Source of the DNA: Spirochaetae bacterium HGW-Spirochaetae-5 | GTDB lineage: Bacteria > Spirochaetota > UBA4802 > UBA5550 | Direction of reading: 5' to 3' | Assembly: GCA_002839285.1 (NCBI GenBank) | Contig: PGXT01000015.1 | Span: forward strand, 1-51,749 | DNA length: 51,749 bases | Shown: piece after piece, positions 9,478 to 16,203 of the stretch | Layout of the letters: the number at the start of each line of letters is the position of its first letter | Position numbering within the stretch: position 1 is the first letter of the stretch | Made by a program: the position numbers and the translations under genes | The notes under the pieces: generated by a model | Told to the model about the DNA's origin: nothing | The model's input: the letters and a program-made list of their open reading frames with translations, nothing else | Databases searched by the model: none

Positions 9478-10473
9478 ATGAGATTCAGAATAAGACATTA
9501 CCATAATAAGTTTTCAAGAAAGTTCTACGAGAGCTACTTCGTTTTCAAAAAGAAGAGGGAGAAGGTCTGGAAGAGGTTTGTTGAAAAGGGTCATGAGAAG
9601 ATGACTGTTATGTTCATCCCTCACAATGAGAAGAAGATTTTTAATTTTCAGATATCAAAATTCATCATCTTTTTCTTTCTCAGTCTTTTTATCTTTGTAA
9701 TTGTTACCTCCTCTTACGCGGTTATTAAAAACAGAAATATTAAAAACGAAGAGAGAAAACTGCTTCTTTCATACAATGATATAAGAGCTGATCTTATCAG
9801 ATACGAGCAGCTTACAAATGAAATAACAGATATAGTTGGCGACCTGAAGCCCGATATTGAAGATCTGTATCAGCTTGCTGCGGGTACAGATGAAGTGGGC
9901 GATCTCTGGGCTTATAAGGATTTTGACCACGATGTAATGGAGGAGCTTCTTAAAAACAAAAGAATAGTTCCTGATGAAATTTTTGCCATGAAAGAAGTTC
10001 AGAAAGATCTCATGAGTACAACAAGCACTATTAAAACAATTAAGAATTTTATCGATGTCAGAAGCAAAGTAATTCAGGATATGCCATCTATTATTCCTAA
10101 CCCGGGTCATATCTCGTCACTATTCGGCTGGAGAAGGTCTCCATTCGGTCACGGCAGGGATTTTCACACTGGCATTGATATAGCAGCCTCAGCAGGTACA
10201 GTTATCCGTACCACGGCTCCGGGAACAGTTGTATCTTCCGGCTGGATGGGGGGATATGGTAAAGCCGTCCGCATTCAGCATAAGTTCGGCTATGAAACGA
10301 TTTACGGTCACATGAGTTCTGTCGCTGTGGGGAAGGGTGCCAGAGTAAATAAAGGCGACAGGATCGGATTTGTAGGGATGACCGGGAACGCCACGGGGAA
10401 CCACAACCATTATGAAATCAGACTTGGAGATATACCAATCAACCCATACCCGTATATGAGTAGAATGTGGTAA
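9478..10473 (+). CDS. Membrane-anchored M23 (LytM-type) peptidase
   Basis: A 331-residue protein with a basic cytoplasmic N-terminus (about 1-58), one membrane segment (about 60-82, rich in Ile/Phe), a coiled-coil-like periplasmic linker, and a C-terminal M23 domain (about 205-325). The zinc and catalytic motifs are present: HTGID near 229, YGHMS near 279 and HNHYE near 309. The last is usually HLHFE, so the Leu and Phe are replaced while both His remain. It probably trims peptidoglycan or regulates wall growth. No strong ribosome site precedes ATG 9478. The SprA-like gene follows 75 bases downstream in the same direction. Confidence 0.92.
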   Translation: MRFRIRHYHNKFSRKFYESYFVFKKKREKVWKRFVEKGHEKMTVMFIPHNEKKIFNFQISKFIIFFFLSLFIFVIVTSSYAVIKNRNIKNEERKLLLSYNDIRADLIRYEQLTNEITDIVGDLKPDIEDLYQLAAGTDEVGDLWAYKDFDHDVMEELLKNKRIVPDEIFAMKEVQKDLMSTTSTIKTIKNFIDVRSKVIQDMPSIIPNPGHISSLFGWRRSPFGHGRDFHTGIDIAASAGTVIRTTAPGTVVSSGWMGGYGKAVRIQHKFGYETIYGHMSSVAVGKGARVNKGDRIGFVGMTGNATGNHNHYEIRLGDIPINPYPYMSRMW

Positions 10474-10548: not shown

Positions 10549-13500
10549 ATGAATAGAATATTTTTAATCTACATCTCGTCGATTTTTATTACCTCTGCAG
10601 GTATATATTATGCAGGGGCGCAGGAACATTCCGGTTTTAAAGAAAAAATGATTCAGTTCCTTGAAAAATCGGGAGCTGGAGGTCTCTCCTCAGAGCAGAG
10701 CAGCAGTGATGGCAATGTATTCCCCCCCCGGTCTGACAATGATGGGACATTTTTTAAAAAAGGTGAGTGGTCGGAATACGTCACCGATCCTGAATATAAA
10801 CTCAAATCTGACCGGACTAAAACCGGAAATATATATTCTGATGACAGAATGAATATAAATGCCTCAGGTACAGTTAATGTTAACCTCAATTACGGCAAAT
10901 CCTATTACACAAGCAAAAAGTATATGCAGTACGATGAAGATCTCCCTTATTCCCGGGTCATCGATTCAGGCTTCTGGCCTGAACAGAAGGTCATACTTAA
11001 TGTTGAAGGGACCATCGGAGACAGAGTAACCGTATTTATTGATCATGACAGCAGCCGTGAGGAGAACCGCTATCTAATGAATTATCGGGCTCTCTCTGAC
11101 GATGAAATTATCAGAGAGATAAATGCCGGAGAGATAGACATAAAGTTTAATCACTCAAAATATGCGGTATATGACAATACCGATGCCAAGGGCCTTGGTG
11201 TGGATTTTACCCTTGCGAAGGGGGATTTCTCCATAAAAGCTTTCGGCAGCATCGCCCGCGGTGAAACTCAGGTGGAATACTTCCGGGGAAACTCCTCCCC
11301 GGGGAATACAAAAATTGCCGAATATCAGTATATAAGCGGAACCTATTATCAGCTTGAACCTTTTATCCGGTATGATGCGGTATCCGTTACTCCATCGGGA
11401 GCCGGAGCATACTCTCTAGTAACATTTACTTCAAATCCGGTTAATCCTCTGTCCTATACGCTTACACCAGTAAATATCTCCCCTTCAGATTTTGAAATAT
11501 ATATAGATGATCAGAATCAGTATAACAATAACAACGCGATTGTTCTCCCTCCATCATATGGCGGCGGTTATTACACAAGGATGGTTAATGGTACCGATTA
11601 TTCTATTAATTTCTCCACGGGTGTAATCCGTTTTTTAAAAGATTTTCCAGGAAGTTCCCGAATATTTGCTGTTTACAAAAGAAACGGCGGAACTCTTGAT
11701 CCATGCGCTTTCTCTTCAGGTTCAGAACCGGGTATATTTTCCGGCAGGATATTTGTCTTTTTAAAATACGGTTATTCGATAGATGAAGACTTGAATAAAA
11801 ATTTTTCACTTGATGCAGGTGAGGATAAGAACGGAGACGGCAGATTAAATCTTGATATATATGAAATAAGATCGGTCTATTTTCTGGGTAACAGGCAGAT
11901 TCTTGCTTCGGATTTTTCCATAAATTTTTATAAAGAGAATCAGATAATGGAAAAGGATGAGATTGCGAAATTGAGCAGTTATAAGCTCGATCTGACTGAG
12001 GGACTTATTCTGTTTTCCACAAGAGAGCCTTTTAAATCGATCCTGGCACCCGACAGAGTTTCAAGAATATACAGTGAAACAAAAATCAGTGATGCCTACC
12101 TTTACTCGTCCTATAGGCTTACTTCTCAATACAACGTCGAGGCGCGGGCATTTAAACTTAAGAACGGCAATATTATAGATAAGAGTGTCCGGATTAAAGT
12201 GAATGAACTTGTAATCTCTCCGTCGCTCTACAGTGTTGATTATGAATCGGGGTTTATAAGCTTTTCCGATCCTAATAATCCTGTTATCAGTTCAGATTCA
12301 AGAATTGAAATTAAATATGAATATATCCCTTTCGGTACCGGCGATAAAAACTTTATAAGCGGAGTACGGGCTGATTATGATGTTAATAAAAGTCTTAGAC
12401 TGGGGGGGACAATCATGTTCTCCAGGGATGGCCAGACAGAAGTTATACCGGATATTGGTAATGTAAGTGAGCAGACTCTTCTTTTCGAAGGTGACGCGGC
12501 TCTGAAACTTACCCAAAAGCGTATGGCCGACTTATACAATATTTTTGCCGAAAGAAAAAAGAAGTTTATACCGGTGGAATTTTCGGCCTATGCCGAATAT
12601 GCAAAGAGTATAAAAGATGTGAATATTTTCGGAAAAGCTCTGATAGATAACATGGAGACATCTGATGAGATAGTCTCGGTTTCATTATCAGAAAAGGACT
12701 GGATCCTTTCATCAATGCCCGGTCTGTATTCGCAGAGTGACAGGGGATTGCTCAATTACTATTTTTACAGAGATCCCGATTCACCGGAATCATTAAAGGG
12801 TGAGGGTTATACTCCGCATAGTGTACCATATGCAGTGAAGCCGGGACCGTTTAATATTGCAGCAGGTCACGTAGCAAATGATATACTGGAACAGGATTAC
12901 CAGAAGTCACTGGTATTCGATTTTAATTTTTCAGCCGGTCAGAGTGTGGTAAGTGCTGTAACCAGGAGATTGACAGAGTCTGCTCTGGATCTTTCAGGTA
13001 TGCAGTATGTAGAGGTCTGGGTTAAGTATGAGTCAGGAACTGCTCCTGTTGATCTCCGGCTCGATTTCGGAACTGTTAATGAGGATTCCGACGGAGACGG
13101 AATCCTCGATACAGAGGACGCAAACAGAAACGGGTATATCGATTCTGAACCTTCATCGGGATACTCCGAGGACAGGGGTTATTTATTTAATCCTTCGTCA
13201 GGTACGGTTACCCGTGTAGGGTCAGGTCCCGGGTTGAGTAGTCTTACTAAAGGAGACGGTGCTCTTACAAGTGAAGATCTTAACGGTAATGGTGTGCTTG
13301 ATACTGCTGACAATGTTTATACCGTCAATATGGGGAGTATTTCACCAGCAGCCGGGGTGTGGCAGAAAGTAAGGGTTCATATCGACTGGAGCAGTGTTGC
13401 TCCGGCACAGCTTATTGCGCTTCAGGAGACTAAAAGTATAAGACTTTATCTTGCCGGCACCAGTGGTACAGCTGGGAGGGTGTCAATAGATACTCTTAAA

Positions 13501-16203
13501 GTTGTCAGCTCAAAGTGGAAAAATCCGGAATTAAATAACTCAACACCCATAACTGATCCGGCTGTTATGAAGATTACTCTTGTGAACAGCATCAGCGACA
13601 GCGACTACAGGAATGATTCATTTTTAATCAGGGAGCGCGGTCTTTACAAAGTGCTTTATGGAGATGACAGTGTTGATGATATTGAAAGCGAAAGTGAAAC
13701 GGCTCTTCAGTTAGAGTATAATTTAAGCGGTACGGATTTTGCTTCCATAACCAGAAGATTCACTAAAGAGATAGATCTAAGATTTTATAAAACGATGAGT
13801 ATCTGGTATAACTCAAGAACAACACCGGTAAACAGTATAGGATTTATTATAGGGTCTTCTGATAATGATTTTATTGAATACAGGGTTAACCCGGATTTTG
13901 CCATGGCATGGAAGGAGATTAAATTAAGACTCACGGATGATTCTGCCGGTGATGTTGAAAAATTTCAGATAACCGGTAAGCCGGATCTTAAGAGAATAAA
14001 ATACATCAAGACTGTAATTCATAGTAATGGCAGCAGCGGTAAAATATGGCTTAATGAAATCTACGTATCAGAACCTGAAAAACTTCATGGTGATGCTAAA
14101 TGGTATGAGTTTGAGCTTAAAGCGCTTCAGCCTCTTTTTAGAACGGCCTCAGGCGTGCCTGTTCTTTCTGATATGAATCTGCGTTATATTTATAAGGGGC
14201 ATTCCTCCCAGTTCAATTCGGTGAATAAAACATCTGCAGATATATCCGAGAATTACCATGAATTATTCGCATCAGCTAAAATTCTTCCTAACTGGTATAC
14301 GAATGTGAATTATATAAATGAGTTCAGCAGAACAGACAGTTTAAATGAAAAAGTTGCTGATTCCAAAAAAGGAGATGCCAGGAGAGATTTTTTTACCGTT
14401 AATTCTGTTTTTAATTCGCCGGGGGGCGGTATCCCCTCCATTACTCTGGCGTATTCATACGATAAAAATGAAAATTTACGCGAAGCTGTAACTGCGGGGA
14501 ATAATTATGATGAGGATGCAGTCAGTGTTGTTCATACGCCCGTTCTTTTATACAGACAGGAACTTGCCGATTTTTTATATGGAAAAGTCTCTCTACGGAT
14601 GATTCTTGATCTGGCTTTTTCTCATAAATATGTAAGTCGTGAATCTTCAGATACGGATGATTCTTTGCTGGCGTCATCCGTATCATTAAGAGAGTCCGAA
14701 AAGAGACAGGAATCAGATGCAAAAGTTGAACTGGATTATTCTAATGGTCTTTTTTATTTCCGTCCTCAGGTTACAACTTCTTCAAGGGAGTATGTTCAGC
14801 TTCACGGCAGCGATAAGTACGACTCCACAGGAGTAAGCGGTAGTGTAAACGGGAATTTTTATATCCCCTTTAAAAGTTATGAAGACTCCAAGTTTATTGA
14901 AAGAAACAACGGGACAGGTTTTGCTTTCGGTTTAAAATTATCGGAATATTTTTCACCGGAATATTCCATGGGTATCGATTATAAAGAAAATGCCTTTAAA
15001 GATTATAAAGATGAATCGGCAGTGGGAGAAGGATTCAGCCGTTTTAAAAACAGCATGTCCAATCTGACTTCAGAGATCAGGCTCCCTGTATTATTAAATA
15101 AAACAGAAAAATTTAAGAGAGTTAAAAATCTGAATTTCAGTTATCAGCGGTCATTATATTTTAATGAAACAGATGTTCCCTATGAGGGGGAGGGTACCGG
15201 TTATTTTGATGAAGAGTATGGCGTATCAAATGTCTTTTCAGAGCTAAGTTCTCCTGCGTATAATCTGATTTATAACTATCCCGGAATTTATCTGCAAGGG
15301 AGGGGTAATGCCGCGAGGGGTCGTGATCTTATACATGGTGTTTTTAATGATGATCATGGTATAGCTGGTATAAGCAGTTCAAGTGAGTATAATAATGCTC
15401 TTAAACTTATTGATAAAATAAACGCCGATTTATCATTTGATGCCGGTCTATTCCAGTTTTATACATCGGGGAGTATAAGTCAGGTCTGCGAAAGGAGCAA
15501 TATTTATGGTATTCCTAACCAGGTAATTATTGCAGATTCAGATATTAATTTTGAATTTGATCTTATGCAGATATTGACCCGGGGATTTTTCAGGAGTAAT
15601 GGTGAAGGGCTCTCTTATCATTCATCTACACTTGACCTTGGTTTAAATTTTACCAATAATATGCTGGTAACCTCTAATATAAACGAAAAAAAAATAGGAC
15701 CTTCCGCGGGGATATTTTTTAAATGGGACAGAAGCAGTATTAATTTTAAATACGAATTTGATTTTAGAATCAAGACCAATGAAGAGTACATAAGCACTTC
15801 TCTTGCCGAGGGGGATAGCGATTATATTTACCTCCGGAATATGGAAGGTAACAGTTCCTTCAGCGAAAAAGATTTCGGGCATATATTCATGACAAGATAC
15901 GAAACCGATGTGGAATGGCTCTATTCATTTTTTTCTAATTTTTATAAGCTTACCGGTCTCCCTCTATTTTCAATTGAGTATAAGATGGAGATAAACAGGT
16001 ATGATTATTATAAAACGGTATCACCTGAGCCGTATGATCTTTTTATGGTTACATCTGATCTTAATCTGGACCTTCATAAGAATGTTCAGGGATCGCTGTC
16101 TGGAAAGATGGCTCTTGAAAAATTCAGAAATAGAGAGAATAACGGTATAAGCAGGCAGGTTCTGTCTTATGAAGTTAATGCCGGGATATCATTCATTTTT
16201 TAA
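10549..16203 (+). CDS. Giant SprA-like outer-membrane/cell-surface protein
   Basis: A 1,884-residue exported protein with an N-terminal signal sequence (MNRIFLIYISSIFITSAGIY). Residues about 160-215 (DHDSSREENRYLMNY, then ALSDDEIIREINAGEIDIKF and KGLGVDFTLAKGDFSIKAF) resemble the repeated N-terminal domain of SprA, the giant translocation channel of the Bacteroidota type IX system. Calcium-binding-like Asp/Asn loops occur at about 426 (NGDGRLNLD), 845 (DSDGDGILD) and 910 (NGNGVLD). The second half is beta-rich with alternating aromatic residues, and the protein ends VNAGISFIF, with a terminal Phe as in outer-membrane barrels. I infer a very large beta-barrel with surface or periplasmic domains. 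Its function is unknown, and no other T9SS component is in the window. It overlaps the convergent DHH gene by 11 bases. Confidence 0.8.
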   Translation: MNRIFLIYISSIFITSAGIYYAGAQEHSGFKEKMIQFLEKSGAGGLSSEQSSSDGNVFPPRSDNDGTFFKKGEWSEYVTDPEYKLKSDRTKTGNIYSDDRMNINASGTVNVNLNYGKSYYTSKKYMQYDEDLPYSRVIDSGFWPEQKVILNVEGTIGDRVTVFIDHDSSREENRYLMNYRALSDDEIIREINAGEIDIKFNHSKYAVYDNTDAKGLGVDFTLAKGDFSIKAFGSIARGETQVEYFRGNSSPGNTKIAEYQYISGTYYQLEPFIRYDAVSVTPSGAGAYSLVTFTSNPVNPLSYTLTPVNISPSDFEIYIDDQNQYNNNNAIVLPPSYGGGYYTRMVNGTDYSINFSTGVIRFLKDFPGSSRIFAVYKRNGGTLDPCAFSSGSEPGIFSGRIFVFLKYGYSIDEDLNKNFSLDAGEDKNGDGRLNLDIYEIRSVYFLGNRQILASDFSINFYKENQIMEKDEIAKLSSYKLDLTEGLILFSTREPFKSILAPDRVSRIYSETKISDAYLYSSYRLTSQYNVEARAFKLKNGNIIDKSVRIKVNELVISPSLYSVDYESGFISFSDPNNPVISSDSRIEIKYEYIPFGTGDKNFISGVRADYDVNKSLRLGGTIMFSRDGQTEVIPDIGNVSEQTLLFEGDAALKLTQKRMADLYNIFAERKKKFIPVEFSAYAEYAKSIKDVNIFGKALIDNMETSDEIVSVSLSEKDWILSSMPGLYSQSDRGLLNYYFYRDPDSPESLKGEGYTPHSVPYAVKPGPFNIAAGHVANDILEQDYQKSLVFDFNFSAGQSVVSAVTRRLTESALDLSGMQYVEVWVKYESGTAPVDLRLDFGTVNEDSDGDGILDTEDANRNGYIDSEPSSGYSEDRGYLFNPSSGTVTRVGSGPGLSSLTKGDGALTSEDLNGNGVLDTADNVYTVNMGSISPAAGVWQKVRVHIDWSSVAPAQLIALQETKSIRLYLAGTSGTAGRVSIDTLKVVSSKWKNPELNNSTPITDPAVMKITLVNSISDSDYRNDSFLIRERGLYKVLYGDDSVDDIESESETALQLEYNLSGTDFASITRRFTKEIDLRFYKTMSIWYNSRTTPVNSIGFIIGSSDNDFIEYRVNPDFAMAWKEIKLRLTDDSAGDVEKFQITGKPDLKRIKYIKTVIHSNGSSGKIWLNEIYVSEPEKLHGDAKWYEFELKALQPLFRTASGVPVLSDMNLRYIYKGHSSQFNSVNKTSADISENYHELFASAKILPNWYTNVNYINEFSRTDSLNEKVADSKKGDARRDFFTVNSVFNSPGGGIPSITLAYSYDKNENLREAVTAGNNYDEDAVSVVHTPVLLYRQELADFLYGKVSLRMILDLAFSHKYVSRESSDTDDSLLASSVSLRESEKRQESDAKVELDYSNGLFYFRPQVTTSSREYVQLHGSDKYDSTGVSGSVNGNFYIPFKSYEDSKFIERNNGTGFAFGLKLSEYFSPEYSMGIDYKENAFKDYKDESAVGEGFSRFKNSMSNLTSEIRLPVLLNKTEKFKRVKNLNFSYQRSLYFNETDVPYEGEGTGYFDEEYGVSNVFSELSSPAYNLIYNYPGIYLQGRGNAARGRDLIHGVFNDDHGIAGISSSSEYNNALKLIDKINADLSFDAGLFQFYTSGSISQVCERSNIYGIPNQVIIADSDINFEFDLMQILTRGFFRSNGEGLSYHSSTLDLGLNFTNNMLVTSNINEKKIGPSAGIFFKWDRSSINFKYEFDFRIKTNEEYISTSLAEGDSDYIYLRNMEGNSSFSEKDFGHIFMTRYETDVEWLYSFFSNFYKLTGLPLFSIEYKMEINRYDYYKTVSPEPYDLFMVTSDLNLDLHKNVQGSLSGKMALEKFRNRENNGISRQVLSYEVNAGISFIF

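Follow-up and report, generated by a model that had tools for sequence, protein, structure and literature searches.

A remote SprA homologue in a spirochaete lineage, and PorV-like and CTD-like proteins in genomes that carry its family

The giant gene and its surroundings

The window examined here, i.e. the whole stretch of 51,749 nucleotides of contig PGXT01000015.1 from Spirochaetae bacterium HGW-Spirochaetae-5, contains at positions 10549 to 16203 of the forward strand an open reading frame for a protein of 1884 amino acids (P0001), with no competing long open reading frame on the opposite strand. The first-pass annotation, made from the sequence alone, had called exactly this huge frame and had also recognized the M23 peptidase beside it. 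The features discussed below are the following (residue numbers are those of P0001):

9478-10473, + strand: M23 peptidase, 331 aa, directly upstream of P0001 (Pfam M23, E = 9e-31)
10549-16203, + strand: P0001, giant outer-membrane protein of the SprA superfamily, 1884 aa (open reading frame, TIGR04189, hhalign, fold match)
10549-10623, + strand: signal-peptide-like N-terminus, residues 1-25 (hydrophobic stretch read from the translation)
10837-12615, + strand: N-terminal SprA-homologous region, residues 97-689 (hhalign of this part alone, E = 6e-38)
11119-11148, + strand: INAGEIDIKF signature, residues 191-200 (alignment with SprA VEVGNVSMPL)
11824-11850, + strand: calcium-type loop DKNGDGRLN, residues 426-434 (motif scan)
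12616-14088, + strand: middle SprA-homologous region, residues 690-1180 (hhalign, E = 4e-28; model and PDB matches)
13084-13143, + strand: adjacent calcium-type loops DSDGDGILD and DANRNGYID, residues 846-865 (motif scan)
13276-13302, + strand: calcium-type loop DLNGNGVLD, residues 910-918 (motif scan)
14167-16194, + strand: C-terminal barrel part with 24 long strands, residues 1207-1882 (AlphaFold2 model; Foldseek match to SprA)

The giant gene is real, conserved and single-copy across the order of this spirochaete: it is carried by 49 of 59 related genomes according to a single-sequence search, and by 50 of the 59 according to a profile search, normally in one copy each. Records with close relatives of P0001 bear the names Spirochaetes, Spirochaetia or Spirochaetota bacterium; the lineage is known from metagenome-assembled genomes (MAGs), and the names agree with the initial guess that the DNA is from a spirochaete. 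The adjacency of the M23 peptidase is conserved only within the window's order, as judged by a motif scan of neighbouring genes. Since synteny is limited in this way and the peptidase is no general partner, we rejected this linkage as a clue to the function of the giant protein.

Relation of P0001 to SprA in sequence and predicted fold

The NCBIfam model of SprA (TIGR04189) matches P0001 in five stretches with 101.5 bits (E = 2e-29), which is under its curated equivalog cut-off of 200 bits. The Pfam model SprA_N (PF14349), with which the first-pass annotation had proposed to search, did not match P0001 in hmmscan, and a search of the spirochaete's own genome with it also found nothing, the control set likewise giving no positive; the failure of this model indicates that the relation to SprA is remote. 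Searches of PDB sequences, including those of solved SprA, by phmmer and hmmsearch returned no SprA match and nothing useful. To recognize the relation, profile-profile or fold comparison is therefore needed.

As a reference we used 16 true SprA sequences from Bacteroidota genomes, one of which is near-identical to the solved Flavobacterium johnsoniae protein (6h3i). When 31 homologues of P0001 were compared with this set by hhalign, the profile similarity to SprA that had been predicted was present, with a probability of 100% and an E-value of 4.8e-59 over 1061 columns, spanning residues 97 to about 1190 of P0001 and 131 to about 1500 of SprA; a more diverse set of homologues gave E = 1.4e-75. 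Taken by thirds, the N-terminal and middle parts matched their own SprA counterparts (at the E-values listed above), and mismatched thirds of the two families gave no match. The C-terminal third was only marginal (probability 58%, E = 1e-4), so that for this part it is the fold that carries the case for SprA. SprA and the P0001 family also have a set of common landmarks, which follow one another in the same order, namely (P0001 family / SprA) DDEIIREINAGEIDI / EDDIVQKVEVGNVSM, ALIDNMET / IYIDDFEG, KPGPFN / DRGPYN, FGTVNEDSDGDG / LGEVSEDVLKDG and ITGKPDLKRI / IKGNPNFGLV. The INAGEIDIKF segment, which had been singled out as SprA-like, aligns with the SprA stretch EDDIVQKVEVGNVSM, and its G194 is invariant among the 31 homologues; given the collinearity of the landmarks, it is a real signature of the family. 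P0001 is a true, though remote, homologue of SprA, and the homology is strong.

An AlphaFold2 model was built for residues 690-1884 from an alignment of 37 sequences (mean pLDDT 85.9). The C-terminal half had been described as beta-rich, and in the model it indeed contains 24 long barrel-type strands, a count that refers to the C-terminal part and not to the whole barrel, for which 36 strands, a side opening and an extracellular cap would be expected by analogy with SprA, while residues 690-1180 are modelled as jelly-roll domains that, also by their PDB matches, resemble carbohydrate-binding modules. In a Foldseek search against the PDB the best four matches were all chains of the SprA translocon (E = 1.4e-26 to 1.2e-20), with the next-best match (6e-6) at least 14 orders of magnitude weaker. 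VIA-align superimposed the whole model (1-1195) on SprA 842-2401 with Z = 15.8 and 997 aligned residues, at a high rmsd (about 15 Å) that we attribute to the model covering part of a closed barrel only. Other barrels and carbohydrate-binding domains reached similar Z scores, but over much shorter stretches; the case for SprA thus rests on the Foldseek E-values and on the full-length span. By this model the C-terminal part has an SprA-type barrel fold. Overall, P0001 resembles SprA in sequence over its N-terminal two thirds and in predicted fold over its C-terminal two thirds.

Compared with SprA/Sov (TIGR04189; PDB 6h3i, 6h3j, 8gl6, 8gl8), P0001 is likewise a very large outer-membrane protein, with about 1060 columns of collinear homology, common signature motifs and the same predicted fold in its C-terminal part. 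In contrast to these likenesses, identity is about 18%, P0001 is shorter (1884 versus about 2400 aa), it does not reach the equivalog cut-off, and the genomes of its family have no detectable GldL, GldM or PorU (see below). Calcium-type loops and a terminal Phe are features of P0001 that SprA lacks. The loops, already noticed in the first pass, are real and conserved in the non-Bacteroidota family, as a motif scan detected them in 20 out of a diverse set of 21 homologues from outside Bacteroidota, against one of the 16 SprA sequences, and D910 and L917 of DLNGNGVLD are invariant in the homologues. Outside Bacteroidota, in spirochaetes and others alike, the homologues invariably end in Phe, whereas none of the true SprA open reading frames examined does, and hence this residue is not the SprA trait that it had been taken for.

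A wider family of giant outer-membrane proteins

Homologues of P0001 were also found in Leptospiraceae, Elusimicrobiota, Aerophobetes and others, according to names taken from MAG titles, among which misbinned contigs are possible. In a quick tree, Bacteroidota SprA formed one clade and the window's order another, with full support for each. The SprA branch is long and grouped with the Elusimicrobia/Aerophobetes rows, but the long branches of several distant rows leave the deep branching order uncertain. By this tree, Bacteroidota SprA is one clade of a wider family present in Spirochaetota, Elusimicrobiota and Aerophobetes. This is a broad SprA superfamily of very large outer-membrane barrels, of which P0001 is a member, and the initial suggestion of a wider family of giant outer-membrane channels is supported by profile-profile comparison, fold and phylogeny alike.

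Two further observations concern the Bacteroidota. A contig labelled Bacteroidetes bacterium ADurb.Bin145 (L065, MWDJ01000049.1) encodes a protein 59% identical to the spirochaete family, and the same bacterium also has a true SprA of its own; the contig is probably misbinned. In addition, most Bacteroidota genomes have a second protein, of about 1180 aa, to which positions 604-690 of the SprA model also match (open reading frames of about 1150-1270 aa). This size suggests PorU, in which case a small domain may be common to SprA and PorU.

Type IX components and a candidate export route

We searched for components of the type IX secretion system (T9SS) in 16 genomes, 14 of which carry the channel (the spirochaete's own, others of its order, other Spirochaetota and other phyla) and two of which are Bacteroidota controls; the search covered GldL, GldM, PorU, PorV and the C-terminal domain (CTD). 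Both controls were positive for GldL and GldM, whereas in the 14 channel genomes GldL was not found, and GldM was not found except for a 16-bit match in one of them (G055). The whole PorU model matched in the controls only, and elsewhere just its CTD part did. One may consider that the type IX system is nevertheless complete in these organisms, with a motor, ring and sortase that are too diverged for the NCBIfam models or are encoded in missing parts of the drafts: SprA itself falls below its curated cut-off here, so that other components could also escape detection, four of the remaining components (GldK, GldN, SprE/PorW and SprT) were outside the search, the single GldM match points in this direction, and for the spirochaete itself there is a draft of 309 contigs with 95% completeness, in which absence is no proof. 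However, the genomes negative for GldL and GldM include several that are 95-100% complete, the controls were strongly positive, and PorU matches were confined to the CTD part, and we regard this explanation as rather unlikely.

The picture for the carrier and the sorting signal is different. PorV-family barrels (PorV/PorQ, NF033709) were detected in 16 of 16 genomes at E <= 0.01 and above the model cut-off in 11, and the type A CTD model (TIGR04183) had matches in 13 of the 16, controls being included in each case; the CTD matches were clear in genomes G056, G060, G061 and G063. The two are often encoded by neighbouring genes. Counting as a pair any CTD gene followed on the same strand within 500 bases by a PorV gene, we observed 15 pairs in G056 and three in each of G060, G061 and G063, where 0.19, 0.01, 0.012 and 0.004 were expected, respectively, i.e. 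24 versus about 0.2 in these four best-stocked genomes together. Cargo-like proteins may be long: one of 2508 aa ends in a CTD and also contains HEAT, amidase and Ig-like domains. The first-pass view that P0001 lies outside an evident type IX context is thus half right: GldL and GldM, which form the motor, and the sortase PorU were not found, but carrier and signal are there, in the form of gene-linked PorV-family barrels and CTD-like domains. Among 13 other Spirochaetota, PorV matches with E < 1e-12 occurred in five of six genomes with the channel and in one of seven without it (one-sided Fisher p = 0.025, with a threshold picked after seeing the data); some genomes that lack the channel have PorV-like proteins as well.

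G056, a member of the Spirochaetota from another family, has over 50 matches each to the PorV family and to the CTD (on L184, L185 and others), many of them in adjacent pairs, and would be a good place for studying the route.

Type A cargo of Bacteroidota relies on a single general PorV, whereas the channel genomes studied here have many PorV-like genes beside individual CTD genes. In having the carrier gene directly after the cargo gene they are like the type B branch of T9SS with its gene-linked PorP/SprF (PMC12618676), from which they differ in that their signal resembles type A by its score (TIGR04183) and their carrier, among the models searched, is PorV-like.

In the window's own order neither family scores higher than cut-off. 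A conserved gene row of this order places a secreted CTD-like protein (118-139 aa) beside a PorV-like barrel (about 340 aa), and the spirochaete's own genome has one such weak-scoring pair and no large cargo paired with a carrier:

L146:7643-7999: CTD-like protein of the own genome, 118 aa
L146:6662-7537: the PorV-like barrel paired with it, 291 aa

In a relative (G004:C5, L159:4447-5772) the CTD-like domain is fused to the N-terminus of the PorV-like barrel in a single protein of 441 aa, in place of which relatives have two adjacent genes. Two more proteins of the order belong here: an order-wide PorV-family barrel of about 400 aa (best E = 2.7e-15 in the own genome, where a contig end truncates it) and one of about 830 aa that ends in a CTD-like domain. 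The strongest CTD match assigned to the own genome was set aside, since it lies on a short contig (G000:C307, L147, 3138 bases) that is probably Bacteroidota contamination.

In a conserved protein of about 880 aa, a PorV-like barrel is accompanied by FlgD-type Ig repeats and by a peptidoglycan-binding OmpA domain, an arrangement that would suit the tethering of an outer-membrane barrel to the wall:

L163:2644-5277, L158:4920-7562 and, in the own genome, L174:2875-5517: barrel/FlgD-Ig/OmpA protein

For the own order one may also consider that P0001 is no translocon and instead has a surface or structural role in the outer membrane or transports another substrate, and that the PorV-like (UPF0164/FadL-like) and CTD-like (FlgD-like Ig) proteins do something else. 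CTD-like proteins are few there, the best conserved of them has no passenger, and the middle region of P0001 resembles carbohydrate-binding modules; moreover, the paired CTD-like domain of the own genome, with its 22.9 bits for a cut-off of 23, resembles FlgD_ig as well, so that its role as a sorting signal is tentative. However, G056 and other genomes combine the same channel family with dozens of CTD/PorV pairs and with large passengers, and CTD-like and PorV-like proteins are fused or adjacent within the order itself, and we consider this scenario improbable. Chance resemblance of an unrelated large beta-rich protein, for which the fruitless phmmer, hmmsearch and Pfam SprA_N searches could be cited, is exceedingly improbable and is taken as refuted by the collinear profile-profile match with its null mismatched controls, the landmarks in common order and the lead of SprA chains over all other PDB matches.

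We therefore favour, with moderate confidence, the reading that P0001 would be the export channel of a type IX-like route that works without GldLM and PorU and uses gene-linked PorV-type carriers. In F. johnsoniae the CTD of a substrate binds PorV loops that protrude into SprA via a side opening, and in the proposed cycle the substrate leaves with PorV; removal of the motor traps the substrate in the channel, the motor being needed for release (PMC10994853). By analogy, a protein with a C-terminal CTD may enter the P0001 barrel from the periplasm, its CTD would bind a PorV-type carrier docked at a side opening, and cargo and carrier would leave the channel together, the carriers being encoded beside their cargo as are those of type B cargo in Bacteroidota (PMC12618676). 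As the searches detected no GldL and GldM pair, the route would need some other driving force, perhaps from folding or calcium binding outside the cell, or from another proton-driven motor. With no PorU detected, the signal is probably not removed by such a sortase, and the CTDs probably stay uncleaved on their carriers.

The T9SS has been found in Bacteroidetes only (Abby et al. 2016, PMC4793230), or described in a review as limited to the FCB superphylum (PMC11205867), and a 2024 review states that phyla outside FCB have none of its genes (PMC11285876). A literature search without most subscription papers found none on SprA homologues in spirochaetes, while NCBIfam already has models of PorV-like proteins beyond PorV (NF033709, NF052325), so part of the family is known to its curators. 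An SprA homologue together with PorV-type and CTD-type proteins in Spirochaetota, Elusimicrobiota and Aerophobetes calls the FCB limit into question. It is conceivable, and we suggest it tentatively, that a protein secretion route lacking GldLM and PorU, made up of SprA-type channels and gene-paired PorV-type carriers, is widespread outside the FCB group, with the T9SS of Bacteroidota being one branch that acquired a motor. With such a homologue at hand it becomes testable which part of the T9SS is ancestral, and whether protein export may proceed by a channel and a carrier without the rotary motor that F. johnsoniae needs.
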